Source of the DNA: Propionibacteriaceae bacterium
Lineage (GTDB): Bacteria; Actinomycetota; Actinomycetes; Propionibacteriales; Propionibacteriaceae
Assembly: GCA_025965155.1 (NCBI GenBank)
Contig: JAOPXN010000074.1
Location: forward strand, 1 to 49,217
Reading direction: 5' to 3'
DNA: 49,217 nucleotides
A model generated the notes under the pieces. The model worked only from the letters and a program-made list of their open reading frames with translations. It was not told where the DNA came from and made no database searches. This document shows, piece after piece, positions 9,614 to 47,875 of this stretch (positions are counted from its first letter, which is position 1; each line of letters begins with the position of its first letter). Made by a program: the position numbers and the translations under genes.

Positions 9614-9740
9614 GAAATCTCCTGCATGAGCGTGAGGTCGCAGCCAGAGGCGACCAAGGAAGAAGGGTGGCCGACGCAGTACGCGTCGGGGTGCGGCTCG
9701 TTGCGGCAGCACCGAGCGACTCGCTTCTTACCAAGCGGGC
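9614..9740. other. Leader between the membrane gene and the YcnI-like gene, with hairpin
   Basis: A perfect 7-bp stem, CCGACGC (9671-9677) and GCGTCGG (9683-9689) around AGTAC, lies in the 127-base gap upstream of the YcnI-like gene. It could attenuate read-through between the two halves of the copper module or be part of a promoter leader. No known riboswitch is apparent. Confidence 0.4.
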
Positions 9741-12457: not shown

Positions 12458-12484
12458 GAGTCCCCCCGGAGCTACATAATTGCG

Positions 12485-12498
12485 CCCCAGCCTAGGGG
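12485..12498. promoter_or_regulatory. CCCC-N6-GGGG palindrome upstream of the copper module
   Basis: On the minus strand it reads TTCCCCTAGGCTGGGGCG, 28-41 bases upstream of the CopD-CtaG start. The paired C and G tracts recall operators of the CsoR copper repressor, although the spacer is six bases. A second CCTAGGGA lies at 12525-12532. No csoR gene is in the window. TATGTA, between this site and the start, could be a -10. Confidence 0.35.
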
Positions 12499-12538
12499 AA
12501 CCGCACGGTGGCTCACAGACCTTTCCTAGGGAGGCCAT

Positions 12539-12557
12539 GACCCCCAAAGGAGGGGTC
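12539..12557. terminator. Hairpin after the EF-G-like gene
   Basis: GACCCC (12539-12544) and GGGGTC (12552-12557) flank CAAAGGA, 24 bases beyond the EF-G-like stop on the minus strand. There is no clear U-tract on the minus side, so it is a GC-rich stem of uncertain strength. It separates the EF-G-like gene from the copper operon. Confidence 0.45.
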
Positions 12558-29920: not shown

Positions 29921-29951
29921 GAGTTCACATATAAGAAAGCTAGTTCCCATA
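29921..29951. promoter_or_regulatory. Two direct repeats (AGTTCACATA, AGTTCCCATA) 20 bp apart upstream of the amidohydrolase
   Basis: AGTTCACATA starts at 29922 and AGTTCCCATA at 29942, exactly 20 bp apart and thus on the same face of the helix. The 16-mer at 29922-29937 matches 14 of 16 bases of the element in front of the ABC transporter (33568-33583). They lie 51-80 bases upstream of the ATG at 30002. An IclR-family regulator is encoded in the same cluster (38790-39572). Confidence 0.65.
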
Positions 29952-30001: not shown

Positions 30002-31141
30002 ATGGGCATCACCCTCAGGGGTGGCTCTGTCTTTGACCCGGACATCGGATCTCAGGTCCGAACGGACCTGCGGTTGGCGGACGGCCTCATCTCAAGCCCC
30101 GAGGAGCACGAGCCCAACGACGAGGTCATTGATGTCACAGGTCTGTTGGTGACACCGGGCCTGGTGGACCTGCATACGCACGTCTTCGATGGTCAGGACC
30201 TCGGTCTGTCGCCGGACCTCGTGGCCGCGCCCTCGGGCACGACAACCCTGATCGACGCGGGCAGCGCGGGTGGTCACCTCTTCGGCGCGTTTCGGTTCGC
30301 CGCCGTGGATCGCTCGGCTGCCCGCATTCGGGCCTTTGTGAACATCGCGTCGATCGGCACGACGAGTATCCGACTCGGCGGTGAACTGAGAACGTCTGCC
30401 TACATTGACGACGGTGTTGCCGTCGAGTGCATCGAGCGCAACCGGGACATTGCGATCGGCGTCAAGGTCCGAGCATCGGGAGACGTCGGAGGAGAGAACA
30501 GCCTGGAGGCGCTGCGGCGAGCCCGTCGCGCGGCTGATCGCGTTCAGCTTCCGCTGATGGTGCATCTTGGTCCCGCTCCCGCTGCTATCGATGACATCGC
30601 GGACACGCTCCGTGCCGGCGACATCCTCACGCACGCGTTCACCGGCTGGGAGGACAACCGCATCGTCCTGGGCGGTCGGCTCCGACCATCGGTGCGGGAG
30701 GCGAGGCAGCGCGGCGTGCTGCTGGACATCGGGCACGGGATGTCCGGCTTCAGCTCGGCGGTCGCGCGAGCGCTGATTGACCAGGGCGAGTTTCCCGACA
30801 CGATCAGCAGCGATCTGCACACGTACTCACGATCCCTTGTCGTGGACCTGCCCACGGTGCTTTCGAAACTGATGGGCCTCGGGATGTCGCTCGACGAGGT
30901 CCTGATGCGGGCAACCCTCGCTCCCGCACGGACTGCAGCGATGGCTGATGGCATCGGTACCGTTCGTCCCGGCGCGCCTGCGGATGTCGCCGTCTTCCGC
31001 CGGGTGCACGGTCCAGTGACCTTCACCGACGGGTTCGGAGGGACCTCCCGAGGATCGGAGCGGCTCGAGGTCGTGCTCACGATCATCGGCGGACGAATCG
31101 CCTTCGATGCTCGCGCAGACATGATCAAGGAAACGCGATGA
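30002..31141 (+). CDS. Amidohydrolase/deacetylase family metallohydrolase (EF_0837 type)
   Basis: The ATG at 30002 follows AGGAGG by 5 bases and gives 379 residues. The metal-binding motif is VDLHTHVFDGQDLG (HxH), with IGVKVRASGD for the carbamylated lysine strand, LPLMVHLG and LTHAFTGW for later histidines and SSDLHTYS for the catalytic Asp. It belongs to the amidohydrolase/deacetylase family often paired with a SelA-like PLP enzyme, as here (ATGA overlap with the next gene). It should hydrolyse a C-N bond in a cyclic amide or N-acyl compound in the cytoplasm. Substrate not established. Confidence 0.9.
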   Translation: MGITLRGGSVFDPDIGSQVRTDLRLADGLISSPEEHEPNDEVIDVTGLLVTPGLVDLHTHVFDGQDLGLSPDLVAAPSGTTTLIDAGSAGGHLFGAFRFAAVDRSAARIRAFVNIASIGTTSIRLGGELRTSAYIDDGVAVECIERNRDIAIGVKVRASGDVGGENSLEALRRARRAADRVQLPLMVHLGPAPAAIDDIADTLRAGDILTHAFTGWEDNRIVLGGRLRPSVREARQRGVLLDIGHGMSGFSSAVARALIDQGEFPDTISSDLHTYSRSLVVDLPTVLSKLMGLGMSLDEVLMRATLAPARTAAMADGIGTVRPGAPADVAVFRRVHGPVTFTDGFGGTSRGSERLEVVLTIIGGRIAFDARADMIKETR

Positions 31142-32322
31142 GCGTCTACGAAAGACTTGGTGTGCCCACAGCACTGAACGGGGTGGGCCCTGCAACGCGA
31201 CTGGGCGGGTTGCCGTTGCATCCATCGGTACTCGAGGCCATGAACGAAGCTGTTGCTCAACCAGTGCGGATGGATGCCCTCCAGGCTGCAGTGGGCCGAC
31301 GCCTCGCCGGGTTGCTAGAGGTCCCGGCTGTGTATGTCACCTCCGGCGCATCGGCCGCACTCTTCCTCGCCACAGCAGCGGTGATGGCCCGCGGTCACGC
31401 AGATCTGATCGACCGGCTTCCTGACACCACCGGGATGAAGAACAAGGTGATCATCCAGGCTGCCCACCGCGACCCGTACGACCACGCCGTAACCTCGGTC
31501 GGGGCGACGTTGATCGAGATCGGCTACCCGGAGTCGACTCATCCAGGTGAGCTGGAGCGGGTCATCGACGACCGTGTCGCTGCGGTGCTCTTTCGGCCCG
31601 GCCGGCACGGCAACCTGCTGGATCTCGAAAGCACCGCCCGCATCGCGCATCAGCACGGGGTGCCGGTGATCATCGACGGCGCACTGTTCGTACCACCTGT
31701 CGACCGGCTCAGAGCTTTCTTCGCGGCGGGGGCCGACCTCGTAGCGGTGAGTGGAGGCAAAGGGTTCCGCGGCCCGCAAGCGAGTGGGCTGCTGTGCGGA
31801 CGTCGCGAGCTGATCGAGGTGGTCGGACTACACCACCAGGACATGGACGAGCGCGACACGACCTGGCCGTCCAACCAGGCGACGAGCACTCCCGCCACTC
31901 CCCCGCGCCACGGCGTCGGCCGTCCGATGAAGGTCGGCCGCGAGCAGGTGATCGGTTTGCTCGCCGCGATCGAGCGCTACATGGCTAATCCGGGAGCCGA
32001 CGAGGAGTGCGGGATAGCCGAGCTCGGGCACTCCGAGGAAGTCCTACGCACTGCAGGGATACCGGTGACCCGGCACCACGAGGCCGCCCTCGACGTACCG
32101 TACCTCCGCCTTGACCTCGCTGCCACCGGCCAGCGGGTCGACGACGTCGTGCGTGCCTTGGCTGCACGCCCCGTGCCTGTCTACCTGGGTGAAGCTGAGG
32201 CATGGTGCCAGGCGGTGACTATCAACCCCATGGCCCTCAGTCACGGCGACGGGCGCCAACTCGGCGAAGCGGTGGTGGAAACCCTCGCCGACCTTCGGGG
32301 ACAACCAGCAAGGAGAGATTGA
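31138..32322 (+). CDS. SelA-like PLP-dependent enzyme (amino-sugar-acid ammonia-lyase-like)
   Basis: The 394-residue protein overlaps the amidohydrolase by 4 bases. It has the aminotransferase fold of the selenocysteine-synthase-related family: YVTSGASAALFLATAA binds phosphate, VIIDGALF holds Asp180 facing the pyridine nitrogen, and AVSGGKGFRGPQASG holds Lys208 that forms the internal aldimine. Relatives include D-glucosaminate-6-phosphate ammonia-lyase, which makes a 2-keto-3-deoxy acid and ammonia. It is not a selenocysteine synthase, since no selB or tRNA-Sec is near. Exact substrate is unknown; the pairing with the upstream hydrolase suggests deacylation then deamination. Confidence 0.9.
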   Translation: MSVYERLGVPTALNGVGPATRLGGLPLHPSVLEAMNEAVAQPVRMDALQAAVGRRLAGLLEVPAVYVTSGASAALFLATAAVMARGHADLIDRLPDTTGMKNKVIIQAAHRDPYDHAVTSVGATLIEIGYPESTHPGELERVIDDRVAAVLFRPGRHGNLLDLESTARIAHQHGVPVIIDGALFVPPVDRLRAFFAAGADLVAVSGGKGFRGPQASGLLCGRRELIEVVGLHHQDMDERDTTWPSNQATSTPATPPRHGVGRPMKVGREQVIGLLAAIERYMANPGADEECGIAELGHSEEVLRTAGIPVTRHHEAALDVPYLRLDLAATGQRVDDVVRALAARPVPVYLGEAEAWCQAVTINPMALSHGDGRQLGEAVVETLADLRGQPARRD

Positions 32323-32324
32323 TC

Positions 32325-32354
32325 ATGAGCAGGCCGAGCGGAATACCGCGTTGA
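32325..32354 (+). CDS. Nine-codon leader ORF coupled to the lactonase start (or a frameshift scar)
   Basis: AAGGAGAGA (32310-32318) is followed at normal distance by ATG at 32325, opening nine codons (MSRPSGIPR) and ending at TGA 32352-32354. The TTG proposed for the lactonase begins at 32351, so stop and start overlap as TTGA. Either the mini-ORF couples translation to the lactonase, or a small indel has cut the true N-terminus from its ribosome site. Confidence 0.4.
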   Translation: MSRPSGIPR

Positions 32355-33430
32355 CCGCCGGCTCGGCCGGTACCTCGATGACCGGAGCAGAACCTGCCGG
32401 TGCACTCTTCGTCGCCGGCCGCGGCACCGCGGTGACCGATGGATTGCACTACTTCGCACCGTCAGTGGACGGTTGGACCGGCACCCAGCTAGCGACGGTG
32501 GATGAGCTCGCCGCGCTGTGCTGGCATCCGACGCTTCCGATCATCTACGGACTGTCCGGGTTGGGCCGTGGGCTGATGCACGCCTGGCACGTGGAAGCGG
32601 TGCCGTCCGGTCCAGCGCTGAGCCTGGCCAAGCAGGATTGCCTGGGTGAGATCCCCTGCGACCTCGCGGTCGATCCGAGCGGCCGATTGCTGGTGGCCGC
32701 GAACTTCGGCTCCGGCACCTTGACGGTATGGAGCCTGGACGAACGCGGGGTGCCGGGTAGCGACGGTGAGATCGTACGGCTGGAGGGCCCGTCTCTTGCT
32801 GAGCTGCCTCAGCAAGCGGGACCGCACCCGCACCAGATCGTCTTCGACCAGGCGCTCCTCTATGTGCCCGACTACGGGGCGGATCTCCTCAGGCGCTTCG
32901 CCGTAGAACCTGAGCTGGGTGCTGCGGCGGCGCTCCAAGAGATTGACGGGCTGCCCGTGCCGGCCGGGACGGCACCAAGACACATGGTTCTCTGGCGGAC
33001 TACGTCGGCCGCAACCCGGCTGGCGCTCAGCGGGGAACTCGCCTCATCCTTCCTCGTCGGGCCGCGGGACGGCTCAGCGTGGGGAGTCGCGTCCAGCACC
33101 CGGCGCACAGGTGCCGCCAGAACGCGGCATCCGCGCAACTATCCGGGCGACCTCAAGCTCTCCATCGACGGGCGCCATGTCTACTTCGCCAACCGCGGGT
33201 ATGACACGATCGCCGTGTTCGCACTGGAGGATGATCAACCGCGGCTGCTGACCGAAGTCGAAGCACTCGCGGCCTGGCCGCAGCACCTCCTCGTTCAAGA
33301 TCATTTTCTACTGGTTGCGGGGTGGGACAGTTCGACCGTCGTAGCCCTCCCGCTGACGAACGGTCTCCCCGGGGAGCCACATGTGCTTTTTGAGTGCCCG
33401 GGCGCAGCCTGGCTGCTGCCGTCGCGCTAG
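32351..33430 (+). CDS. Lactonase family beta-propeller protein
   Basis: The 359-residue protein shows repeated propeller blades of the 6-phosphogluconolactonase (YbhE/Pgl) type: IIYGLSGLGRGLMHAWHVE, DLAVDPSGRLLVAANFGSGTLTVWSLDERG, HPHQIVFDQALLYVPDYGADLLRRFAVEPELG and DLKLSIDGRHVYFANRGYDTIAVFALE. Family members open sugar lactones. No signal peptide, so cytoplasmic. The TTG start at 32351 overlaps a nine-codon leader ORF; ATG 32378 is the next option but has no ribosome site. As third gene of the amidohydrolase unit, it probably opens a lactone intermediate. Confidence 0.88.
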   Translation: MTAGSAGTSMTGAEPAGALFVAGRGTAVTDGLHYFAPSVDGWTGTQLATVDELAALCWHPTLPIIYGLSGLGRGLMHAWHVEAVPSGPALSLAKQDCLGEIPCDLAVDPSGRLLVAANFGSGTLTVWSLDERGVPGSDGEIVRLEGPSLAELPQQAGPHPHQIVFDQALLYVPDYGADLLRRFAVEPELGAAAALQEIDGLPVPAGTAPRHMVLWRTTSAATRLALSGELASSFLVGPRDGSAWGVASSTRRTGAARTRHPRNYPGDLKLSIDGRHVYFANRGYDTIAVFALEDDQPRLLTEVEALAAWPQHLLVQDHFLLVAGWDSSTVVALPLTNGLPGEPHVLFECPGAAWLLPSR

Positions 33431-33547
33431 ATCCAGGCGGACCGCGCTCGGCGCCTGAGATTCCTTTGTCCCTTGGCGTTCTAGCGCTCGGCAAGCCTGA
33501 TCAGAAGTGCGGCTAACCCTTGGCGAGGGAGGCGCTAGCATGGTATG

Positions 33548-33583
33548 AATTCTCATATGAATACTTAAGTTCATATATGAGAA
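33548..33583. promoter_or_regulatory. Palindromic operator candidate with two direct half-sites, upstream of the ABC transporter
   Basis: TTCTCATATGAA (33550-33561) and TTCATATATGAGAA (33570-33583) form a large inverted repeat around TACTTAAG. As direct repeats the elements AATTCTCATA (33548) and AGTTCATATA (33568) are exactly 20 bp apart, as in the promoter at 29922/29942. The sequence is strongly AT-rich and ends 16 bases from the preferred start at 33600, so a bound protein could block the promoter or translation start. Confidence 0.7.
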
Positions 33584-33599
33584 CAGAATGGAGATCGTC

Positions 33600-34958
33600 A
33601 TGATCAACCAAGGCCCAGGTCGGGACCAGAGTCAGCTTCTCAGTTCGACGCTTTCCCGCCGCAGCGTGCTCCGCGGCGCACTCGTAGCCGGCCTGGCGCT
33701 TCCGAGCATCGGCGCGCTCGCCGGCTGCTCCGCCGACGACCCATCGTCGAGCTACAACGGCAGGCTTTCGATGACCGCGTGGGAGGCGTACCCGGACCAG
33801 ATCCGGTCGAACCTCAAGGCATTCACCGACGTGTCCGGGGTCAATGTCGATCTGACGCTGATTCCCAACGTCGGGTATGTCTCCGCCCTGCAGACGCGAC
33901 TGCTCGGCGGGACGGCGATCGACGTGTTCTACAACTTCGCGTACGCGTCCACCAAGTATGCCGACCAAGGCTGGGCCGCCAAGCTCAACGACTTCGAGGG
34001 CGCTGAGGACATGATCGCGGACATGTTCGCCTCGTCCCGCGGGCTGTACCAGCTCCAGGACGGGCGCATCATCAACGCGCCCTACTTCTCTGCTCTGTAT
34101 TCGCTGTTTTACAACAAGAGCCAGGTCAAGTCGGTCGGCGGAGCAGCGGAGCCGCAGTCGAAGGATGAGCTCTACAGCCTCAGCGAGAAGCTCAAGAACT
34201 CAGGCGTCAAGGCGCCGTACGCCGCGTACTGGACCAAGCAGTTCTGTGAGGAGTACTTCATCAACTACCTTCTCGCGGACGGCGTCACACCGTTCGATGA
34301 GAAGGGCGCGCCCGTGTTCGCCGACGACGCCAAGACCAAGGACGTTCTCAGGTGGTGGCAGGCGATGTACCAGGACGGGCTGACGTCCAAGGGAATCCTG
34401 ACCGCTGACCCCGGCGTGCACGTGACCGCCATGGCCCAGGGCACCTCGAGCTTTTTCGAGCTGCACCACTACTTCCTCAAGGAGATCCGGGGCACGAAGG
34501 GCCCGCAGTCGGCGAATGTCGACATCGCCTACCGCAGCCCGGGCACTGCCGGGACAGCACTGCAGATCGGAGAAGTCATCCAGATGGGTAGCGGCCTGGA
34601 GGGTGATCGGGCTCGTGACGCGTGGCGGCTGCTCAAGTCCTACGGCTGGAAGGACGAAGCCGGCGCCTACTCGACCTTCATCTCCTGGGCCAAGTCTGCT
34701 GCGCTACTCGCCCCCTATCCAAACCTGTTCGCTGACCAGGAGTTCCGGTCGGCTTTCCCGAAGTACTACGACATGGACAAGCTCAAGGACGGGTTCGAGA
34801 ACAACAGCGCCGCCGTCTCAGCCCGGGTGGCGCCGTGGTACTCCACCTTCCAGACGAACGTCGGTGACCGCATCCAGGCGATGTTGATCGGAGAGGCCGA
34901 TGTGGACGCCACCGTCTCAGGTCTTGCGTCGGACGCCACGACAGCCGCCGGCGCCTAG
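33600..34958 (+). CDS. ABC transporter sugar-binding lipoprotein (Tat-exported)
   Basis: The ATG at 33600 is 5 bases past GGAG and gives 452 residues. LSRRSVLRGALVAGLALPSIGALAGC carries a twin-arginine motif (Arg20-Arg21) and a lipobox ending at Cys43, so it is a lipid-anchored, Tat-exported protein. The rest is a family 1 extracellular solute-binding protein: LSMTAWEAYPDQIRSNLKAFTDVSGVNVDLTLIP, LQTRLLGGTAIDVFYNFAY and FYNKSQVKSVG are typical. It captures the substrate outside the cell for the two permeases that follow. Ligand unknown, probably a saccharide or sugar-acid derivative. Confidence 0.93.
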   Translation: MINQGPGRDQSQLLSSTLSRRSVLRGALVAGLALPSIGALAGCSADDPSSSYNGRLSMTAWEAYPDQIRSNLKAFTDVSGVNVDLTLIPNVGYVSALQTRLLGGTAIDVFYNFAYASTKYADQGWAAKLNDFEGAEDMIADMFASSRGLYQLQDGRIINAPYFSALYSLFYNKSQVKSVGGAAEPQSKDELYSLSEKLKNSGVKAPYAAYWTKQFCEEYFINYLLADGVTPFDEKGAPVFADDAKTKDVLRWWQAMYQDGLTSKGILTADPGVHVTAMAQGTSSFFELHHYFLKEIRGTKGPQSANVDIAYRSPGTAGTALQIGEVIQMGSGLEGDRARDAWRLLKSYGWKDEAGAYSTFISWAKSAALLAPYPNLFADQEFRSAFPKYYDMDKLKDGFENNSAAVSARVAPWYSTFQTNVGDRIQAMLIGEADVDATVSGLASDATTAAGA

Positions 34959-34962
34959 CCTG

Positions 34963-35898
34963 ATGGCACAGCACACGTCTGTCATCCGCGGTTCTCGCCG
35001 GGCTGCTCCGCTGACCCGGTCCGGCCGTCGGTTCGGTGCACTGCTGGCCCTGCCTGCACTGGTGCTGGTGCTGGGGCTCATCGCCGTGCCCGCAGTGCAG
35101 ACGTTGGTGTACTCGCTCCAGGACGGCACGTTCGTGCGAGCCGGGAGCTGGAACGGGTTCGAGAACTTCACCAAGCTGTTCAGCAGCGAGAAGTTCCGCA
35201 ACTCGCTCTGGCTCACCACGGTGTATGCCCTGGGGTACCTGGTGCTGTCCACGGCTTTGGGCCTTGCGTTCGCGCTTCTGCTCAACCAGCGGTTTCGGGG
35301 CCGGTGGCTCGCCCGCGGACTGCTGATCGTGCCGTGGGCCTTCCCCTGGGTCATGGTTGGCATCATCTGGAAGTGGTTTGTGGACGGTGACGTTGGCGTA
35401 CTGCGTGCGCTGGTCGTCGACACCGGGCTCTCAGACACCTTCGTCGCGCCACTGTCCACCCAGAACGGCGCGGTCGTTGTGGCCATTCTTGCGGCCGCCT
35501 GGCGGCAGTCGTCCCTGGCCGCCCTGCTCTTCCTCGCCGGCCTGCAGAGCATGCCGCAGGAGATCCATGAGGCTTCCCTGGTGGACGGAGCCGGGATCTG
35601 GCAGCGATTCGTGCACATGACCCTTGCGTGGCTGCGCCCAGTGGTTGCGGTTGTCGTCATCCTCAGCACGATCTCCGGCTTCATGCAGTTCGACGTGATC
35701 TGGGCCATGACGCAGGGCGGTCCCGGCAATGCCACCACGGTGCTGTCCATCTATCTCTACCAACAGCTGTTCGTGGACACCAATCTTGGGCTCGCCTCAG
35801 CCACCTCGGTCGTGCTCGGCATCCTGGCTCTGGGACTCGGCTTCCTCTCGGTCAAACTCATGTACCGGTCGAACGGCGTATCGGAAGGTGTCCAGTGA
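34963..35898 (+). CDS. ABC transporter sugar permease (MalF type)
   Basis: The ATG at 34963 is 4 bases past the binding-protein stop, giving 311 residues with six helices. The EAA loop EIHEASLVDGAGIWQRFVHMTLAWLRP (about 210-236), which touches the ATPase, and GFMQFDVIWAMTQGGPGNATTVLSIYLYQQLF are MalF-type signatures. It forms half of the membrane channel. The GTGA overlap with the next permease shows tight coupling. No ATPase gene occurs in the window; carbohydrate importers of this type in actinobacteria often share one MsiK-like ATPase encoded elsewhere. Confidence 0.93.
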   Translation: MAQHTSVIRGSRRAAPLTRSGRRFGALLALPALVLVLGLIAVPAVQTLVYSLQDGTFVRAGSWNGFENFTKLFSSEKFRNSLWLTTVYALGYLVLSTALGLAFALLLNQRFRGRWLARGLLIVPWAFPWVMVGIIWKWFVDGDVGVLRALVVDTGLSDTFVAPLSTQNGAVVVAILAAAWRQSSLAALLFLAGLQSMPQEIHEASLVDGAGIWQRFVHMTLAWLRPVVAVVVILSTISGFMQFDVIWAMTQGGPGNATTVLSIYLYQQLFVDTNLGLASATSVVLGILALGLGFLSVKLMYRSNGVSEGVQ

Positions 35899-36773
35899 GG
35901 CGTTCCCGCGCACAGACGGTGTTGATCTACGGCGGGTTCGCGCTGTTCCTGGTCTGGATCTTGTTCCCGCTGTACTTCACGGTTCTCAGTAGTTTCATGA
36001 GGCCCTCCGAGATCGGCTCGGTGCCGTTCCATTGGCTGCCCGAGAGCCCGACCTTGATCAACTACGTGGCGATCTTCACCGGCAACAGCACTCCGTACGG
36101 CGAGGGCATGAGCCAGGGTCTGGTCTCCAGCACTGATGCCGTTGAGCGCATCCTGCCGGCGATGGGCAGGAGCCTGTTGGTTGGTGGCATGGTCGCTTTG
36201 ATCAACGTGGTCATTGGAGGGCTGGCCGGCTACGCGTTTGCCAGATTCCCGTTCCGTGGTGCCAGCCTGGGCTACTTCCTGCTGATCGCATCACGCGTCG
36301 TGCCGGGTCTCGCCATCGTGCTGCCCTTCTTCATCGTGTTCCGAAAAGTGGGCCTCCTCAACACGACGGGCGGACTCACGATCGCCTACATCGCATTCAC
36401 GTTGCCGATCTCGGTGTGGGTGCTGAAGACATACTTTGACACCGTACCGATCGAGATCGAGGAAGCCGCCCGGGTCGACGGCGCGTCCCGGCTGCGGTCC
36501 CTCCTGGTCATCGTCGCTCCCCTCGCCAAGCCCGGGCTCATCGCGGCCGGGCTGCTGGCGTTCCTCGAGGCCTGGAGCGAGTTCTTCTATGCCTTGGTGC
36601 TTACCGACAGCCTGACCGCCCCGCCGGTCGTGTCGGGGTTACAAAGCCTGCAGCAGTTCTCCTGGACGACGCTGGCGGCGGCAACTGTAGTCACGGTCAT
36701 CCCACCGGTGATCATCGCAATCGTGTTCCAGCGGTACATAGTCAGCGGCCTCGCAGCCGGCAGCGTCAAGTAG
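35895..36773 (+). CDS. ABC transporter sugar permease (MalG type)
   Basis: The GTG at 35895 overlaps the preceding stop (GTGA) and gives 292 residues with six helices. The EAA motif EIEEAARVDGASRLRSLLVIVAPLAKPG is the ATPase contact, and LIYGGFALFLVWILFPLYFTVLSSF is the first helix. LINYVAIFTGNSTPYGEGMSQGLVSS is an unusually long extracellular first loop before helix 2. It pairs with the MalF-type permease to import the ligand of the Tat lipoprotein. Confidence 0.93.
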   Translation: MRRSRAQTVLIYGGFALFLVWILFPLYFTVLSSFMRPSEIGSVPFHWLPESPTLINYVAIFTGNSTPYGEGMSQGLVSSTDAVERILPAMGRSLLVGGMVALINVVIGGLAGYAFARFPFRGASLGYFLLIASRVVPGLAIVLPFFIVFRKVGLLNTTGGLTIAYIAFTLPISVWVLKTYFDTVPIEIEEAARVDGASRLRSLLVIVAPLAKPGLIAAGLLAFLEAWSEFFYALVLTDSLTAPPVVSGLQSLQQFSWTTLAAATVVTVIPPVIIAIVFQRYIVSGLAAGSVK

Positions 36774-36784
36774 GCGGGAGCAGC

Positions 36785-37744
36785 ATGTTTGCCGGAAAAG
36801 TCGTCACCGTCCTCGGTGAGATCGAGCCATCCGAGATGGGCAACACACTGACCCATGATCACCTGCTGGTCGACGGGTGGGGCTTGCGCAACCTGTACGA
36901 GGCGATCCTCGACGATGAGGGCATCGCGATCGATGAGGTACGGCGGTTCAAAGAAGCGGGCGGTGGCACGATCTGCGACCCGACCAACATCGGCCTGGGT
37001 CGTGATCCCCGCGCACTCGCCCGGCTCAGTGCCGCCACCGGGGTGCATGTCGTCATGGGGGCCGGGTGGTACCGAGAGGTCGTCTATCCCGACTACATCA
37101 GCTCGACATCCACTGAAGTGCTGGCACAGATCCTGGTTAACGAGATCCGCGACGGCGTCGACGGTACCGGTATCCGCCCTGGGTTCATCGGCGAGATCGG
37201 TACCGAGCGTGGACACATCACCCCAGCCGTCGAGCGCGTCTTCCGAGCGGCGGCCCGGGCACACGTACGCACCGGAATCCCGATCCTTACTCACACGACC
37301 CACTGGGGCGAGCTGGCCCTGGAGCAGCTCGACCTGCTAGCCGAGGAGGGTGTCGCGCCCTCGGTGGTGATCGTGTCGCACCTCGGGGACCGCAAAGGTG
37401 TCGCCAACATCCTGCCGATCGCGGAACGAGGAGCCTGGATCAACGTGGACAACATCGGGTTCGTCGGCGGGTATGCGCCGCTGGAGTTCCGGGCCGACAA
37501 CGTTGCGGAGCTGTGCAGCCTCGGCCTGGCCGACCGGGTCATGCTGTCGAACGACATCTGTGAGCTCGGCCAGCTGAGCGCGTACGGCGGTGCAGGCTAC
37601 GCGAACGTCATCCTCAACTTCTTGCCACTGCTTCGCGACCGCGGCGTCAGCGAGGACCACATCCAACAGATGATGGTGCTGAACCCATCGCTCGCCTTCG
37701 CGTTCACTGAGCCTGCAGACGCTGCGACCGTGGTGCAGCCATGA
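36785..37744 (+). CDS. Phosphotriesterase-family metallohydrolase (likely lactonase)
   Basis: The ATG at 36785 follows GGGAG and gives 319 residues. The barrel carries His24/His26 (LTHDHLL), His170 or His173 (ILTHTTHWG), His199 (VSHLGD) and Asp257 (MLSNDIC), all metal-site residues. The bridging lysine is replaced by Glu137 (FIGEIGTERG), as in the PHP subgroup. Family members hydrolyse lactones or phosphate esters. In a sugar cluster the best guess is opening a sugar lactone. Its stop overlaps the dehydrogenase gene by 4 bases, suggesting sequential steps. Confidence 0.9.
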   Translation: MFAGKVVTVLGEIEPSEMGNTLTHDHLLVDGWGLRNLYEAILDDEGIAIDEVRRFKEAGGGTICDPTNIGLGRDPRALARLSAATGVHVVMGAGWYREVVYPDYISSTSTEVLAQILVNEIRDGVDGTGIRPGFIGEIGTERGHITPAVERVFRAAARAHVRTGIPILTHTTHWGELALEQLDLLAEEGVAPSVVIVSHLGDRKGVANILPIAERGAWINVDNIGFVGGYAPLEFRADNVAELCSLGLADRVMLSNDICELGQLSAYGGAGYANVILNFLPLLRDRGVSEDHIQQMMVLNPSLAFAFTEPADAATVVQP

Positions 37745-38715
37745 CGCTACGGCTGGGAGTTGTCGGTGCGGGAGTCATGGGCCGCAAGGTCGCCGCGGCC
37801 GCCGCTCAGATCGACGGTGTGCGGGTGAGCGCGGTGGTGGACCGAGATGACAACCGCGCCACCGCTCTGGCCGGAACCCACGACACCCACGCGCACGAGA
37901 GCATCGCCGACCTTGTCGACTCCGACGTCGTCGACGCCGTCTACATCGGTGTCCCCCACCACCAGCACCTGTCCGCATGTCTCGAGGCGGCCGGAGCCGG
38001 TTTCCATGTCCTCATCGACAAGCCGCTGTGCAACACCTTGGAGGAGGCGGACCAGATTATGGCGGCACGCGACGCCGCCGGCATCAAGCTGATGGTCGGC
38101 TTCAGCTACCGGTTCCGAGCGGAATGGATCGCCGCCCGCGATGCCGTTGCGGCGGGCGAGATCGGGGCGCCGCGGCTGGTGGTCGACACCATCATCGAGG
38201 CGGAAACCAGCACGCCGGGCTGGTACTGGGATGGCGCCGCTGGCGGGGGCGTGCTGCAGCTGCAGTCGCACCACTGCTTCGACCGTCTGGCCTGGGTTCT
38301 CGGTGAACGGTTCGCCTCGGTGGGTTGTCAGGTTTCTGCGACCGCGGCTGCCGCCGAAGACATCGCGATCATCAACGGCACAACCGGCGCCGGTACCCTC
38401 GTCAGCATCAACCTCGGGTTCGGCCGGTCGTACCGATCGGCATCACGCGCAACCACGATCATCCAGGGAGAACTGGGACATATCGTGATCGACACTGCTC
38501 GTAACGTCTCGGTTGCCTCTGGAGACGGCCGGCTGCGGAGCCTGTCCTACGCGGACGACGACTGGCTGCTGCAGGAGGTCACCGCCTTCGTGGGACTATG
38601 CACAGGAGCCGATGGGGCCGTCCCCGGTGCCGAAGATGGCCGGGCTGCGCTCGCCTGTGCACTGGCGGCCACACGGTCTGCGCGCGCCGGCGGTCCCGCA
38701 TTGAGCCTGTTCTGA
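37741..38715 (+). CDS. Gfo/Idh/MocA family oxidoreductase
   Basis: The ATG at 37741 overlaps the previous stop and gives 324 residues. The Rossmann loop is GVVGAGVMGRKVAAAAAQ (5-22) and HVLIDKPLCNTLEEAD (about 90-105) carries the EKP-type lysine that binds both cofactor and substrate (here DKP). The C-terminal half GFSYRFRAEWIAAR and GGGVLQLQSHHCFDRLAWVLGE bears the catalytic His region (family form GGG...DxxxH; here HHCFD). It oxidises a sugar or inositol with NAD(P), for example C1 to a lactone or C3 to a ketone. Directly downstream of the hydrolase and upstream of the IclR gene. Confidence 0.92.
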   Translation: MTLRLGVVGAGVMGRKVAAAAAQIDGVRVSAVVDRDDNRATALAGTHDTHAHESIADLVDSDVVDAVYIGVPHHQHLSACLEAAGAGFHVLIDKPLCNTLEEADQIMAARDAAGIKLMVGFSYRFRAEWIAARDAVAAGEIGAPRLVVDTIIEAETSTPGWYWDGAAGGGVLQLQSHHCFDRLAWVLGERFASVGCQVSATAAAAEDIAIINGTTGAGTLVSINLGFGRSYRSASRATTIIQGELGHIVIDTARNVSVASGDGRLRSLSYADDDWLLQEVTAFVGLCTGADGAVPGAEDGRAALACALAATRSARAGGPALSLF

Positions 38716-38789
38716 ACCGCACTGAGGCAGTCATGATGTGCGAGCCAGGCGACTTCGACCGCATTACTCTCACCTGAGGAGGAGGACCC

Positions 38790-39572
38790 ATGAGCACTGA
38801 CATCCCGAACGTCAAGTCGGCACAGCGCGCGTTGGAGATTCTCGAGGTCGTCTCCCGCCACAGCGGCGGCGTCGGTTTCGTCGAGCTCTCTGCACAGCTG
38901 CCATACCCGAAGAGCAGCCTGCACGGCTTGCTGCAGACGATTGTCAGCATGCGGTGGCTGACGTTCGATCCGGTGAAGCGCGTGTACTCCATCGGCGTGA
39001 AGCCGTGGGAGGTTGGGCAGTCTTTCCTGCGCAGCCGGGAGATCGTCGTCCGAGCTCGCCGGTTCTTGCGGGATGCGCTCCAAGAGCTCGGGGAGACAGT
39101 TCAGCTGGGCATCCTCGACGATCTCGATGTCGTGTACATCGACAAGGTGGAAGGTACCCGCCCACTTCGGCTGATCTCCAACATTGGCAGCAGGCTGCCC
39201 GCATACGTGACAGGGATCGGCAAGGCGCTCCTCGCAGGCCTGGATGACGAGGTGCTCAATGCCCGCTTCAAAGGCACGGTGCTTGAGGGTTACACCAACC
39301 AGACCATCACCTCCGGCGACCAGCTGATCCGGGTGCTGCACAACGTGCGCCGCCAGGGCTACGCGATCGACGACGGCGAGTACACGCTCGGGGTCTACTG
39401 CGTCGCCGTTCCGATCCGCGATCTTGGAGGAAGCGTGGTGGCAGCGATGAGCTGCTCGGTGCCGAAGGCACGCATCGACCTCGGTGAGCTTGAGAAGAAG
39501 CAGATGATCGAGGTGCTGGTGCGTCAGGCCGGGCTCATCTCGCGGGCGCTCGACGCACGGATCGCGGACTGA
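38790..39572 (+). CDS. IclR family transcriptional regulator
   Basis: The ATG at 38790 follows GAGGAGGAGG and gives 260 residues. The winged HTH (about 6-70) has NVKSAQRALEILEVVSRHSGGVGFVELSAQLPYPKSSLHGLLQTIV and the wing FDPVKRVYSIG. The ligand domain (about 85-255) contains RPLRLISNIGSRLPAYVTGIGKALLAGL, QGYAIDDGEYTLGVYCVAVPIRDLGGSVVAAMSCSV and the C-terminal LVRQAGLISRAL. IclR proteins sense small organic acids or sugars. Its position suggests that it controls the surrounding catabolic genes, possibly by the repeated motif at 29922/29942 and 33548/33568. Confidence 0.94.
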   Translation: MSTDIPNVKSAQRALEILEVVSRHSGGVGFVELSAQLPYPKSSLHGLLQTIVSMRWLTFDPVKRVYSIGVKPWEVGQSFLRSREIVVRARRFLRDALQELGETVQLGILDDLDVVYIDKVEGTRPLRLISNIGSRLPAYVTGIGKALLAGLDDEVLNARFKGTVLEGYTNQTITSGDQLIRVLHNVRRQGYAIDDGEYTLGVYCVAVPIRDLGGSVVAAMSCSVPKARIDLGELEKKQMIEVLVRQAGLISRALDARIAD

Positions 39573-39575
39573 TCA

Positions 39576-40700
39576 GTGAGTGGCTGGCTCGACGTGTCGG
39601 TACCTACTCCGGCCCTGCTCTTGGACCAACGGCGTCTGGAACACAACCTCGATGCGATGAGCGCCGTGGTCCGCGAGCACGGGGTCGAACTGCTGCCGCA
39701 TGCCAAGACCCATCGGATGGCGGAAATCGGGCTGCTCCAGGTGGCCCGAGGTGCCGCTGGACTGTGCGTCGCCAAGCTCGGCGAAGCCGAGTTCTTCGCC
39801 GCTGCGGGAATCAAACGGATCTTCGTCGCCTATCCGGTTGTCGGCGACGACAAGGCCCGGCGCGCCGTCGTGCTGGATGAGTCCGTCGATCTCACGCTCG
39901 GCGCGGACAGCGAAGCGGGCGCCGCCAGCGTAGGGCGAGTGTTCGCTGCCGCTGGGCGCACCGCCCGCGTACTGCTCGCCATTGACACCGGGCTCGCACG
40001 GGAGGGGGTGGCGGCTGGTCAAGCAGTCGAGGTCGCGCAGCGGATCGCCTCGATCGACGGGCTCGAACTTGTTGGCATCTACACCCACGAAGGCACCGTC
40101 TACGAGGCATCGGACAGAGCCGACCTCGAGTTCCGGGCTCGTACGGTCGCCGAAACCATGGTTGAGATCGCTGGCCAGATCCGAGCCAGAGGTATCCCCT
40201 TGCCCGTCGTATCCCTCGGCTGTTCGGCCTCGGCTCGGGTGGTCGCGTCGGTGCCTGGCGTGACTCAGCTGCGCCCCGGAATCTACGCAGTCAACGACCT
40301 CGGCCAGGTTGCCCTGGGCAATGCCGACCTAGGCTCTACAGCGATCCGTGTCGTCACCACAGTGGTCAGCCATCCGGAGCCCGGTCGCGCGTGTATCGAC
40401 GCCGGGTCGAAGGCGCTCAGCGCAGACCTGCTTCCTGCCTTGGCACACCGTGCCGCCTACCCGGGCCTCGGCCTGCTCGTTGGAGCACCAGGCTGGATCA
40501 TCGAACGGATGTCGGAAGAACACGGCTGGCTCCGCTGGACGGGCGCGGGCGAACCGAGCGCGTTGCCCATCGGGGTCCGTATCGAAGTGGTCCCGAATCA
40601 CGCCTGCATGGCCTTCGCCATGCTGCGTCGGGTCGTCGTAATCCAGGACGGCGTCGTGGTCGACGTCTGGGAAGGGATGGGTGCGGGCGCATCTGAGTAA
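39576..40700 (+). CDS. D-threonine aldolase/D-serine dehydratase family PLP enzyme
   Basis: The GTG at 39576 lies 4 bases past the IclR stop, giving 374 residues. It belongs to the COG3616 alanine-racemase-fold family: VELLPHAKTHRMAEIGLLQV holds Lys44, which binds PLP, and EVVPNHACMAFAML near the C-terminus holds His342 and Cys344, the zinc ligands of DSD1-type enzymes. LRPGIYAVNDLGQVALG and YTHEGTVYE are family blocks. Members cleave or dehydrate D-beta-hydroxy amino acids (D-threonine, D-serine, D-threo-3-hydroxyaspartate). In this cluster it may release an aldehyde or ammonia from a D-amino intermediate. Confidence 0.9.
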   Translation: MSGWLDVSVPTPALLLDQRRLEHNLDAMSAVVREHGVELLPHAKTHRMAEIGLLQVARGAAGLCVAKLGEAEFFAAAGIKRIFVAYPVVGDDKARRAVVLDESVDLTLGADSEAGAASVGRVFAAAGRTARVLLAIDTGLAREGVAAGQAVEVAQRIASIDGLELVGIYTHEGTVYEASDRADLEFRARTVAETMVEIAGQIRARGIPLPVVSLGCSASARVVASVPGVTQLRPGIYAVNDLGQVALGNADLGSTAIRVVTTVVSHPEPGRACIDAGSKALSADLLPALAHRAAYPGLGLLVGAPGWIIERMSEEHGWLRWTGAGEPSALPIGVRIEVVPNHACMAFAMLRRVVVIQDGVVVDVWEGMGAGASE

Positions 40701-40799
40701 GGGCGGCTCGCGGCCATTGTTAGTCGCCTCAGCTGCTATGGACATCGATTTCGGACCAGATCAAGACATGTCTCATTATTTCGAACAGTAAGGAAGCAC

Positions 40800-41831
40800 A
40801 TGCGCGCGTTGCAGCTCGAGGACTTCGGCAAGCTCGTCGTGACAGAGCTCCCCGAGCCCGACCCGGGACCCGGTGAGGTCGTACTTGACGTAATTGCAAC
40901 CGGCATCTGCGGTTCCGACATTCACGGCTTCACGGGCGAGAACGGGCGACGGGTCCCGGGTCAAGTGATGGGGCACGAGTCGGTCGGCAGGGTGCGCTCC
41001 CTTGGTCACGGCATCGACGCCACGCTGGCGCCGATCGGCCATCTGGCGACGTTCAACCCGGTGATCGTGTCAGCGCTGGGGCAGCGGGTCTTCGCTGGCC
41101 GGGAGCAGCACGATCCAGGTCGTACCGTTATCGGTGTCAGCACCGAACGCACCTCCGCGTTTGCGCAGCGCATCGTTGTACCGATTGAGAACGTGGTGCT
41201 GCTGCCCGAGGACATACCAGTGGCGTACGGCGCCCTGATCGAGCCGCTGGCCGTCGGGCTCAATGCGGTCCGTCGCGTACAGCTGCGACCCGGCGAGTCT
41301 GTGCTCGTTGTCGGAGGCGGCCCTATCGGTCAGTCCACGGTTCTCGCGGCGGTACACGAGGGTGCCGCCCAGGTCTATGTTAGTGAGCCGAACCTCGAGC
41401 GGCGCGCGCTCTGCGAGTCCATCGGGGCAATCGCACTTAACCCGGCCGACGGTCCACTGCCGGAACAGATCATTCAGCGCCATGGAGTTCTGCTCGACAT
41501 AGCCGTGGATGCCGTAGGGAGCTCAGCGTCCCTGGCCGATTGCCTCGGCTCAACGGCTTTCGGCGGTCGGGTCTGCTTGGTCGGCATGGGGAGCCGCCAG
41601 ATCTCGGTCGATGCATATCGCGTCAGCACTGAGGAGCGCTCGGTCGTGGGCAGCTTCTGCTACTCGTTCGACGTGTTCAGAGCCGCCGCCGAGTGGGTTG
41701 CCAGTGGTGAGGAGATCTTTGGTTGCTTGATCAGCGCCGAGGTGTCGCTCGACCACGCCCAGGACGCGTTCCAGCGCCTGGCAACAAAGGCGGACGTGCC
41801 TGGCAAGATCCTGGTGCGGCTTGATCACTAA
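40800..41831 (+). CDS. Zinc-type medium-chain dehydrogenase lacking the structural-zinc cysteines
   Basis: The ATG at 40800 follows AAGGAAG and gives 343 residues. Catalytic zinc residues are Cys37 (TGICGSDIHGF), His59/Glu60 (MGHESVG) and probably Glu148 (GALIEPLAVG). The cofactor loop is VVGGGPIGQSTVLAA (170-184). The four-cysteine structural lobe normally near 90-110 is replaced by NPVIVSALGQRVFAGREQHD with no cysteine. It resembles sorbitol/threonine-dehydrogenase-type enzymes oxidising a secondary alcohol with NAD. Last gene of the catabolic cluster, with its own 99-base upstream gap. Confidence 0.9.
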   Translation: MRALQLEDFGKLVVTELPEPDPGPGEVVLDVIATGICGSDIHGFTGENGRRVPGQVMGHESVGRVRSLGHGIDATLAPIGHLATFNPVIVSALGQRVFAGREQHDPGRTVIGVSTERTSAFAQRIVVPIENVVLLPEDIPVAYGALIEPLAVGLNAVRRVQLRPGESVLVVGGGPIGQSTVLAAVHEGAAQVYVSEPNLERRALCESIGAIALNPADGPLPEQIIQRHGVLLDIAVDAVGSSASLADCLGSTAFGGRVCLVGMGSRQISVDAYRVSTEERSVVGSFCYSFDVFRAAAEWVASGEEIFGCLISAEVSLDHAQDAFQRLATKADVPGKILVRLDH

Positions 41832-45520: not shown

Positions 45521-47875
45521 TCAGCCGCCGAGCCGCTTAGCGAGCGCTTTGGCCTCCCGCGAGGGAGCGCGGGAGCCCCACACATCCCCGCTTCGCAAGC
45601 GGGCACTGGAGAGGTCTTCCAGTGCGCCTTGCAGCTGGGGCCCGTACCCCGCAAGGTCCGCTTCTGCGAGGGGCCGCAGCAGCTCGACCACCCGCTCGTT
45701 GGCACGCCGCGCAGCCCGCCGGTCGCCTTGGGCCTTGGCATCAAGCCAAGCCTGTTGGGCCAGGGCCAGCTCCTCCTGCGCTGCGGCCGGCGACTTTGCT
45801 TCCGGCGACTCCGCGTTGATCTGTGCGGGCTCCTGGCGCGCCGCCTCCGCCCGCTCAGCCTCCAGACGCGCCGCCTCCACCCGCTCAGCCTCGCGTTCCT
45901 GCTCGACCTTGATCCGTTCTGCCTGCTCCGCCTCAGCTTCTTCGGCCGCCAACCGGTCCGCTTGGAGGCGTTCAGCCTTGGCCCGCTCCTCGACGCGCTC
46001 GAGCTCAGCCAGCTCGGCCTGCAGACGCTCCAGTTCGAGGCGTTCTGCTTCGGCGAGGGCAGCGGACCGCCGCTCAGCTTCTAGTCGCTCGGCGTCGAGC
46101 CGCTCCGGCTCCCTTCGCTCCACCCCGAGCCGTTCCGCGTCACGCCGCTCGGTTTGGAGCCGCTCGGCCTCCTGCCGCTCGGCCTCTCGCCGCTCAACCT
46201 CCAACCGATGCTCCTCGAGGCGTTCCTCGCGCCGGCGCTTCCGCTCGACCCGCTCCGCCTCCTCGGCGGCGGCGCGCCGCTCAGCTTCCAGCCGCTGAGC
46301 CTCTTCTGCCTGGGCACGTTGCGCCGCCAGCCGGCTGGCGGCGGCGCGTTCGGCTTCGAGCCGTTCGGCTTCGCGGCGCTCGGTCTCGAGCCGCGCTTGC
46401 TCCTGCCGCTCCAGCTCCAGCCGGTGCGCCTCGGCACGCTCGGCCTCAAGCCAGGCGGCAGTCGCGCCCTGCAGCTCGGGCCGGAGCTCCGCCGAGCCCA
46501 CCTCTCCTGTGCCAGCAGCAGAGGTGGTCGTTGCGGCGTACGAGGCAGCCGGCTCCAGTGGCGCCCAGCTGACCGAACGCGTACCACGGCTTACGACGCC
46601 GCGGGCCAGATCCTCGACTGCGGTACGCGTCGGCACTCCCTGGAGCGCCTGCCCCGCCAGCCCTCGAGCCAGCTCATTGAACGCATCCTCGGCGGACCGG
46701 GCACTATCTAGGTCACCCCCCGCCTGCAGCGCCTCGGCCAACGCAAGCAGACCCACGGCGTGGGCGGCCGACCCAGAAGCCTCGGCAGGCATAAGCTCAC
46801 GCAGCATCTGCACCGCCTCACCGCTGCGTCCGATGCGGGTCAGCACCCGAGCCCGGACCGCGGCCACCAGCAGCCGGCTCGACTCCGAGCCGGATCCATT
46901 GACCGCGACCGCGACAGCTTCGGCAGCGGCGGTGTCCGCCTCGTCGACCCGGTCCGCTCGCAGCAGGTCACCGGCTAGATCGGCGAGAGCTAATGCCAGC
47001 TGCGCGCGCGCCGGGTCGCCCAGCCGCGCGGTGAGCCCCTGCAGCCGCTCGACCAGCGTCCGCCGGGTGACTAACCCGAGGTCGACCTGGTCGGAGGCGG
47101 CCAAGCGGTCGGCCAGATCCCGGTACAGGCCGAACAGCGGCTGAGCCAGGCGCTCCACCAGGGCCGGACTTAGTCGCGCCGGCTGTTGCAGCCGTCCGTC
47201 GACCTCGGCCTCGTACCGCTCCTGGGCTGAGTGCAGGTAGGTCAGCGCCTCGTCGGCCAGCCCGGCCGCCCAACGGGAGTCGGCGGCGAGCCGGTCCGTG
47301 CCCACCACCAGGTACGCGGCCGCGGGGTCCTCGCGAAGGCCGGAGTCGGCTAGCCGGGCGAGGGCGGCGTCGGCGTACGCGTTGGCTGCTGCGAGGTCAC
47401 CGGACGCCAGCGCGCCACGGGCGGTCGAGGAGAGTGCCCAGATCGCCGTTTGCGGCTCCACCTGCTCCGCCAGACCCAGCTCGCGCAGTTGCTGCTGAAT
47501 GTCCCGGAGCGATTCGATCGTTCGGCCTGCGGCGTCCGGCAGCCCCAGGCCAGCTTGGACGGTGGCGAGGTGGACGACCGCTGTCATATAGCGGGCGGCA
47601 TCCGACACCGAGGTGTAGGGCCCGATGGGCCCGTTGGCCGTCAGCAGCTGCGCAGCTCGTCGAACTGCCTCTTGAGCGTCCGTCGCGGCCGCGGCATAGC
47701 CGTTTCCGAGGAGCCGGTGCGCGGTGAGCTCAACCAAGGCGTCGGCCAGATCAGACGCCTTCGACGGGTCCGACCCCACCCAGCCGCGGAGCCGCTGCAC
47801 CGACGAGGCCAGGGTCTTGGCCTGTTTCGCGTACGGGTCCTGAGGCTGCTTTCCTGCCTTCTGTGCTTGGGCCAT
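45521..47875 (-). CDS. Large helical/coiled-coil protein, 784 aa
   Basis: The ATG at 47875 opens 784 residues. Residues 1-430 are all-alpha and repeat-like, with pieces such as ADALVELTAHRLLGNGYAAAATDAQEAVRRAAQLL and ALASGDLAAANAYADAALARLADSGL, suggesting TPR-type helical pairs. Residues about 465-700 are a long charged run of E-A-E-R-x-x-A-E/L-R heptads, a coiled coil or single alpha helix. Residues 705-784 form a short helical end. No membrane segment or signal peptide. Function is unknown; a scaffold or assembly role fits the architecture. The neighbour upstream (48046-48504) is separated by a strong hairpin. Confidence 0.82.
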   Translation of the reverse strand: MAQAQKAGKQPQDPYAKQAKTLASSVQRLRGWVGSDPSKASDLADALVELTAHRLLGNGYAAAATDAQEAVRRAAQLLTANGPIGPYTSVSDAARYMTAVVHLATVQAGLGLPDAAGRTIESLRDIQQQLRELGLAEQVEPQTAIWALSSTARGALASGDLAAANAYADAALARLADSGLREDPAAAYLVVGTDRLAADSRWAAGLADEALTYLHSAQERYEAEVDGRLQQPARLSPALVERLAQPLFGLYRDLADRLAASDQVDLGLVTRRTLVERLQGLTARLGDPARAQLALALADLAGDLLRADRVDEADTAAAEAVAVAVNGSGSESSRLLVAAVRARVLTRIGRSGEAVQMLRELMPAEASGSAAHAVGLLALAEALQAGGDLDSARSAEDAFNELARGLAGQALQGVPTRTAVEDLARGVVSRGTRSVSWAPLEPAASYAATTTSAAGTGEVGSAELRPELQGATAAWLEAERAEAHRLELERQEQARLETERREAERLEAERAAASRLAAQRAQAEEAQRLEAERRAAAEEAERVERKRRREERLEEHRLEVERREAERQEAERLQTERRDAERLGVERREPERLDAERLEAERRSAALAEAERLELERLQAELAELERVEERAKAERLQADRLAAEEAEAEQAERIKVEQEREAERVEAARLEAERAEAARQEPAQINAESPEAKSPAAAQEELALAQQAWLDAKAQGDRRAARRANERVVELLRPLAEADLAGYGPQLQGALEDLSSARLRSGDVWGSRAPSREAKALAKRLGG

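Follow-up and report, generated by a model that had tools for sequence, protein, structure and literature searches.

The window analysed here is one whole contig (JAOPXN010000074.1, 49,217 nucleotides) from the 4.49 Mb genome of a Propionibacteriaceae bacterium (GCA_025965155.1). Its positions 30002–41831 hold a block of eleven plus-strand genes, all intact. In order, they encode an amidohydrolase (AmdH), a SelA-like pyridoxal 5′-phosphate (PLP) enzyme, a beta-propeller protein (Prop), an ATP-binding cassette (ABC) solute-binding protein (SBP), two MalFG-type permeases, a phosphotriesterase-family hydrolase (PTE), a Gfo/Idh/MocA dehydrogenase (Gfo), an IclR-family regulator, a fold-III PLP enzyme (DTA) and an MDR dehydrogenase. 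AmdH and SelA, the two permeases, and PTE and Gfo each overlap by 4 bases; the remaining intergenic gaps are 3 to 157 bases, and GGAGG precedes the AmdH start codon at 30002. No kinase or aldolase family match was found among the eleven genes in family profile searches. An earlier sequence-only reading had named these genes, two of the three overlaps and the lack of a kinase or aldolase, all of which stands; the permease overlap is an addition. Both the gene set and its borders are thus confirmed. GC content does not jump at the borders and so gives no argument for recent foreign origin. The block may well serve the catabolism of an N-acyl amino sugar or its acid, with phosphate-free deacylation, dehydrative deamination, C4 oxidation and cleavage, and we put this reading forward tentatively.

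From its TIGR01437 match, its structural model and its residues, the SelA-like fold-I PLP enzyme (31138–32322, plus strand) is predicted to catalyse the dehydrative deamination of an amino sugar acid that carries no phosphate. The predicted structure has a predicted local distance difference test (pLDDT) score of 82.4 and matched the folds of Cap15 (8t7j) and of an ammonia-lyase (7lc0). The ammonia-lyase is ahead by sequence (107 vs 91.5 bits) and by TM-score on the query (0.78 vs 0.76), and membership of the ammonia-lyase fold family is supported. For the residue comparison we used predicted proteins of 340–430 residues with E<1e-55, whereby some of the 79 SelA loci introduced below were dropped; the alignment is weak in the C-terminal part of SelA, and phmmer and a 73-sequence MAFFT alignment agree on the columns. 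The PLP lysine is present in 72 of 72 aligned relatives, the window included (numbered Lys-217 in PMC9529869 and 213 in the 7lc0 chain). The equivalent of the proton donor His163 is retained in the window and in L043 and L044, its two nearest relatives among the loci listed, whereas the His162 position is lost, being Arg in the window and Lys in L043 and L044.

In the same account, arginines 301, 332 and 346 of the ammonia-lyase are located at the substrate phosphate (PMC9529869). At these positions the window has Y/G/M, and L043 and L044 have G/G/M. Because the phosphate arginines are absent, we read the enzyme as one whose substrate bears no phosphate, in keeping with ABC uptake and the lack of a kinase. 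The three arginines are likewise gone in the haloarchaeal SelA homologues L040 and L042 (E/G/M); a homologue on an Aminobacter plasmid (L039) retains two of the three. The window enzyme also carries an inserted loop, HxDM...W, to which no ammonia-lyase residue aligns and which is conserved in a 14-sequence alignment.

The second PLP enzyme, DTA (39576–40700, plus strand), contains Ala_racemase_N (PF01168) and D-ser_dehydrat (PF14031) domains, both over cut-off. Its metal motif HAC corresponds to the HxC of D-serine dehydratase 3anu, whereas D-threonine aldolase 4v15 shows HVD, an HxD sequence which we take to be its metal motif. The label of D-threonine-aldolase family given in the sequence-only reading therefore has to be dropped in favour of the dehydratase type. 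The two dehydrogenases are Gfo (37741–38715, plus strand; PF01408, below the listed equivalog cut-offs) and the zinc-type MDR enzyme (40800–41831, plus strand; PF00107/PF08240).

Two metal hydrolases could remove an acyl group. AmdH (30002–31141, plus strand) is an amidohydrolase/deacetylase-family metallohydrolase of the PRK09237/EF_0837 type, as judged from NF006689, from its closest solved relative 2ogj and from its counterpart in L043. Its HxH, K, H, H and D motifs, presumably the metal ligands, all align with 2ogj. It thus resembles the EF0837/Atu3266-type amidohydrolases (2ics, 2ogj) in an alignment that spans its length and in the retained metal-ligand motifs; different from them, it scores under the curated cut-offs. 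Atu3266 has acetyl-mandelate esterase activity. PTE (36785–37744, plus strand; PF02126, 251 bits; alignments to 1bf6, 3k2g and 4kev) is of the Glu type: it has Glu, as in Php (1bf6) and 3k2g, instead of the Lys of SsoPox, a residue that presumably bridges the metals, and so lacks the mark of an SsoPox-type lactonase. PTER is an N-acetyltaurine hydrolase with Glu169 at the metal site, and its top solved fold match is 3k2g (PMC11374699). Given the Glu type and the N-deacylation by PTER, deacylation may fall to PTE and some other step to AmdH, or the other way round. From these sequence features, PTE may be an N-deacylase rather than a lactonase. Prop (32351–33430, plus strand; PF10282, 137 bits) is a seven-bladed protein of the lactonase family. 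Lactone formation and ring opening are possible steps, suggested by family names.

For uptake, SBP (33588–34958, plus strand) carries, by eye, the twin-arginine signal SRRSVLRG and the lipobox LAGC, in agreement with the Tat export proposed earlier. It has no Pfam match and shows weak matches to carbohydrate-SBP models; its structural model is poor (pLDDT 47.8). The MalF-type permease (34963–35898) and the MalG-type permease (35895–36773, GTG start) follow on the plus strand, both with PF00528. The IclR-family regulator (38790–39572, plus strand; PF01614/PF09339) may govern the gene set, possibly through sites of the motif TTCAYNNNNRTGAA. This motif has three exact sites in L043, directly 5′ of SBP2, SBP and MDR, and an exact copy lies in L135 too. 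The window has two plus-strand candidate operators, each with one mismatch to it: TTCACATATAAGAA (29924–29937), which lies 5′ of AmdH and overlaps a promoter-like match that does not exceed chance, and TTCATATATGAGAA (33570–33583), immediately 5′ of the SBP gene. Allowing up to one mismatch, five sites were found in the window, three of them intragenic, and 4 of 100 shuffles reach five, a weak signal; the signal is stronger in L043, with nine sites and 0 of 100 shuffles, its six one-mismatch sites being intragenic.

To follow the block in relatives, genome contigs were scanned with the SelA alignment and 79 loci were kept; these are the loci listed, a non-exhaustive set. Two of them exceed 50% identity to the window SelA, L043 from a Rhodoglobus metagenome-assembled genome (MAG; 71%) and L044 from a Salinibacterium MAG (68%). 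L043, completed by L137, holds counterparts of all eleven genes in a single block on one strand. In the block comparison the identities are 67% for AmdH, 70% for SelA, 54% for Prop, 74% for SBP, 80.5% and 86% for the MalF- and MalG-type permeases, 80% for PTE, 51% for Gfo, 77% for IclR, 65% for DTA and 66% for MDR, the last on L137. Ten of the eleven genes are collinear with the window; the exception is Prop, which in L043 is displaced to the block start and followed by a second transporter. Ratios of nonsynonymous to synonymous divergence (pN/pS) range from 0.19 to 0.55 (pS 0.53 to 0.66) between the window and L043/L137, and by these values the block is under purifying selection. Both blocks terminate at the same gene, MDR, beyond which no blastp match (E<=1e-5) was found between the flanking genes of L137 and the window. 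Since the conserved block stops there, genes 3′ of 41831 were excluded. The single conserved catabolic and uptake unit proposed from the sequence is thus supported by the recurrence of all eleven genes. An empty-site test through the adjacent YceI gene was fruitless, as this gene has paralogues and its matches in the genus reach 56% at most.

More distantly, L067 (a Nocardioides MAG) has PTE (61%), SelA (41%) and AmdH (55%) with RidA adjoining and an SBP_bac_5-type transporter, and its genome lacks an MDR homologue at E<=1e-20. A SelA tree of 73 sequences unites the window with L043 and L044 in one clade (support 1.0), and L067 is its sister (0.943); this topology suggests that the association of SelA with PTE and AmdH follows descent. 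Elsewhere the block is rare, and the association is sparse among more distant SelA relatives. SelA was found at E<=1e-30 in 8 of 96 genomes (own and relatives, own counted), with a best identity of 44% outside our own genome, and none of the eight fetched neighbourhoods of SelA relatives (L018–L025) has an AmdH match; MalFG-type transporters occur in some of them, directly beside SelA in L023. Across 396 genomes drawn evenly from the phylum, our own included, with only four or five candidates scored per genome, SelA was found at E<=1e-50 in two (the other one 44%), AmdH at E<=1e-45 in two (the other 35%) and PTE at E<=1e-75 in one, our own. DTA relatives occur in 9 of 57 genomes including our own, and, own copy aside, none is above 45%. 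Plasmid searches gave no match of at least 60% identity for SelA, AmdH, PTE or DTA. Among six plasmid neighbourhoods examined, the Aminobacter one (L039, 7902–11752) has AmdH, RidA, IclR and a SelA-like gene adjoining two ABC transporters. The proposed joint unit would fall if its genes were not conserved together: they are together in L043 and, for four genes, in L067, while the distant SelA relatives come closer to such a failure.

We then counted partner genes near SelA (about 5 kb around it) or far from it (farther off in the same locus), with few seeds; full flanks on both sides are present in only 38 of the 79 loci, and PTE and DTA of L043 themselves lie more than 5 kb from SelA. Near counts, with far counts in brackets, are 9 (3) for AmdH, 8 (1) for oligopeptide (Opp)-type permeases, 4 (3) for MalFG, 3 (1) for FAH, 3 (1) for DTA, 2 (1) for 3HCDH, 2 (4) for Gfo and 1 (1) for PTE. 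AmdH and Opp-type transporters hence look enriched beside the SelA family, whereas RidA and IclR do not. A KDPG (2-keto-3-deoxy-6-phosphogluconate) aldolase was found neither near nor far (0 and 0; four seeds, many loci incomplete), so that the earlier statement that amidohydrolase/SelA pairs occur with KDPG-type aldolases was not borne out among these loci. In a locus of a Dehalococcoidia MAG (L096, 970–11203) we observed two fold-III PLP enzymes and a SelA-like gene, together with, by eye, genes for a TRAP-type transporter and one resembling a DHDPS/KDG aldolase (KDG, 2-keto-3-deoxygluconate); a different phylum may thus have a parallel route.

The sister block bears on how the pathway ends. 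Between SelA and SBP, L043 carries a 3HCDH-type dehydrogenase, an FAH-family hydrolase and RidA; L044, a 4.3 kb contig, has SelA, 3HCDH and FAH. The FAH-family hydrolase of L043 comes nearest to 2,4-didehydro-3-deoxy-L-rhamnonate hydrolase NF053535, with 264.6 bits against a cut-off of 500, and among solved structures to PDB 8gsr. In the non-phosphorylating route 3 for fucose and rhamnose, such a hydrolase splits a 2,4-diketo-3-deoxy acid into pyruvate and lactate (PMC11199699; PMC6336799). Homologues that may correspond to the 4-dehydrogenase and diketo-acid hydrolase of route 3 lie in L043 and L044, with scores below cut-off. Other contigs of our own genome hold FAH homologues (50%, on C112, and 38%), a 3HCDH homologue (40%) and RidA homologues of 45% and 31%; four aldolases of the KDPG type, which score over cut-off, are also found there. 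The earlier statement that the pathway is finished by enzymes elsewhere therefore holds for the window, with FAH, 3HCDH and aldolases on other contigs; in the sister block the candidate finishing enzymes are inside. On C112 (L129, 8419–10321, minus strand), an MDR dehydrogenase adjoins an FAH gene whose product scores 327 bits to 2,4-didehydro-3-deoxy-L-rhamnonate hydrolase (cut-off 500).

In the pathway that we propose, an N-acyl amino sugar or its acid would be imported unphosphorylated through the ABC transporter. Oxidation by either Gfo or MDR, and ring opening if a lactone arises, would give an N-acyl-2-amino-2-deoxy-aldonate, from which one of the two metal hydrolases (AmdH or the PTER-like PTE) would by family take off the acyl group. 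The SelA-like enzyme, which lacks a phosphate site, would then eliminate water and ammonia to yield a 2-keto-3-deoxy acid, and the dehydratase-type enzyme of fold III may act on another isomer or on a related beta-hydroxy D-amino acid. The keto acid would be oxidised at C4 and split by a 2,4-diketo-acid hydrolase into pyruvate and a hydroxy acid. Genes for this ending are present as candidates, in the sister cluster and, for the hydrolase, as the homologue on another contig of our own genome. C4 oxidation and diketo hydrolysis are more likely than a kinase and aldolase: the KDPG-aldolase ending ranks lower because of the sister FAH and because a search with four seeds found no KDPG aldolase in the 79 loci, many of them incomplete, and our own genome could do either. 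In the pathway outlined earlier, ammonia elimination to a 2-keto-3-deoxy acid fits the RidA and the diketo-acid-hydrolase relative of the sister block, and its ending is here revised. The complete combination, a full non-phosphorylating N-acyl amino sugar route with a phosphate-independent SelA-type ammonia-lyase, an amino-sugar counterpart of route 3 and two unrelated PLP deaminases per operon, is possible, though we regard it as doubtful.

Several observations weigh against the amino sugar reading. The SelA-like enzyme scores 158.5 bits to TIGR01437 (cut-off 385.3) and 144.2 to a further curated model (cut-off 600), and AmdH scores 340.7 to NF006689 (cut-off 371) and 237.9 to a second curated EF_0837/PRK09237 model (cut-off 432.15). 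Arg226, described as near the substrate carboxylate (PMC9529869), is kept in the window and is Thr in L043 and L044. By a very small margin, the top fold match of the SelA-like enzyme is the O2-using Cap15 (Foldseek E 1.2e-23 vs 1.3e-23 for the ammonia-lyase). RidA, FAH and 3HCDH are missing from the window cluster, Gfo has the lowest conservation among the block genes (51%), and AmdH was not found in the 1.3 kb 5′ of SelA in L044. RidA (near 8, far 7) is not clearly enriched in the SelA loci, and IclR (near 1, far 5) is not enriched. The motif TTCAYNNNNRTGAA was derived post hoc by comparing these very regions, and eight further SelA loci, which have no link to the block, each hold one exact copy. 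As a source of substrate, a lytic polysaccharide monooxygenase was looked for, and no LPMO_10 (PF03067) match was found in our own genome or in the MAG G490.

Alternatively, the cluster could degrade N-acyl D-beta-hydroxy amino acids or their small peptides, with PTE or AmdH as deacylase, the SelA-like and fold-III enzymes as deaminases, and the dehydrogenases using the products. PTER, the Glu-type relative that hydrolyses N-acetyltaurine, would suit this, as would the Opp-type permeases near SelA and the similar or same kind of ABC systems in L067 and the Aminobacter plasmid locus; the transporters of the window and L043, however, are of MalFG type with weak carbohydrate-SBP matches. In NCBIfam, the IclR regulator comes closest to BhcR and the fold-III enzyme to BhcC, both from the beta-hydroxyaspartate cycle, but the scores (192.8 vs a cut-off of 350; 123.9 vs 690) fall far short of the cut-offs. 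The sister hydrolase is closest to enzymes of sugar-acid pathways. We consider this alternative unlikely.

We give a similarly low rating to an N-acetylglucosaminate route like that of the ong cluster of marine Pseudoalteromonas, in which deacetylation and deamination to KDG would be followed by KDG kinase and KDPG aldolase. Although the four KDPG-type aldolases of our own genome would allow it, the window genes lack a kinase or aldolase match, a D-aminoacylase-type OngB, KdgK and RidA are not among the eleven, OngB is closest to D-aminoacylase whereas AmdH is not, and the sister block carries FAH and a dehydrogenase. The lack of LPMO_10 in our own genome and G490 counts against this route as well. 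A nearer ong-like set lies on contig C120 of our own genome (L131, 5094–9841, minus strand), with RidA, a BhcC-like fold-III enzyme, a D-aminoacylase-like amidohydrolase of the PRK09061 type and an enolase-superfamily dehydratase-like gene. Its presence suggests that the window cluster serves another amino sugar, N-acetylglucosaminate being still possible. Finally, that the SelA-like protein is an O2-using PLP oxygenase like Cap15, in a cluster for an amino-acyl nucleoside or related natural product, is very improbable: Cap15 leads the Foldseek list and takes a beta-hydroxy-alpha-amino acid (PMC7497351), as from its chemistry does the ammonia-lyase (PMC9529869), yet the latter is ahead by sequence and TM-score, elimination is better suited to RidA and FAH partners, and the Pfam matches of the window genes show no nucleoside pointer.

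The amino sugar reading can be set beside known systems. With the ammonia-lyase system of PMC9529869, the cluster shares the SelA-type fold, the PLP lysine, the His163 equivalent and, by prediction, a dehydrative deamination that yields a 2-keto-3-deoxy acid; it differs in having an ABC transporter instead of a phosphotransferase system, in the loss of the three phosphate arginines, in the HxDM...W loop and in the absence of a DgaF-type aldolase. In the N-acetylglucosamine route predicted for the chitinotrophic haloarchaea Natrarchaeobius, genes for IclR, a RutC-family protein and glucose dehydrogenase accompany a homologue of this ammonia-lyase (PMC12343721). Oxidation to glucosaminate precedes deamination there; different from our cluster, phosphorylation to the 6-phosphate by an unknown kinase is assumed (PMC12343721). 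As SelA of L040 and L042 lacks the phosphate arginines, this kinase may not be needed in haloarchaea. The ong cluster for oxidised chitin has in common deacetylation followed by PLP deamination, and a fold-III PLP enzyme, OngC, which converts glucosaminate to KDG; it differs in the D-aminoacylase-like OngB, an SSS symporter and KdgK, and no SelA-like protein is among its listed enzymes (PMC9537276). Route 3 for L-fucose, L-rhamnose and pentoses likewise involves no phosphorylation, and the sister dehydrogenase and hydrolase, the latter closest to 8gsr, may correspond to it; entry here would be by amino sugar deamination, not by a sugar-acid dehydratase, and the dehydrogenase is of 3HCDH type (PMC11199699; PMC6336799). 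No description of the proposed pathway appeared among the listings of full-text searches in the open-access literature.

Elsewhere in the window, all on the minus strand, we observed an EF-G-like gene (12581–14677, 698 amino acids) with a domain II match below the Pfam cut-off, possibly an EF-G paralogue; two Caa3_CtaG domain proteins (3524–4321 and 8861–12547), one with a CopD domain too; and a 784-codon frame without a Pfam match (45521–47875), which may not be a gene. With a nearby DUF1775 protein, the Caa3_CtaG pair looks like a copper/oxidase assembly group.

If the amino sugar reading is true, an uncharacterised SelA-like branch and its amidohydrolase partner would gain a substrate class, and a phosphate-free route would join the known amino sugar routes. 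The block would also be a compact operon for substrate discovery, with two PLP deaminases, two metal hydrolases and one binding protein. Moreover, the kinase step presumed for haloarchaeal chitin users (PMC12343721) would be put in question.

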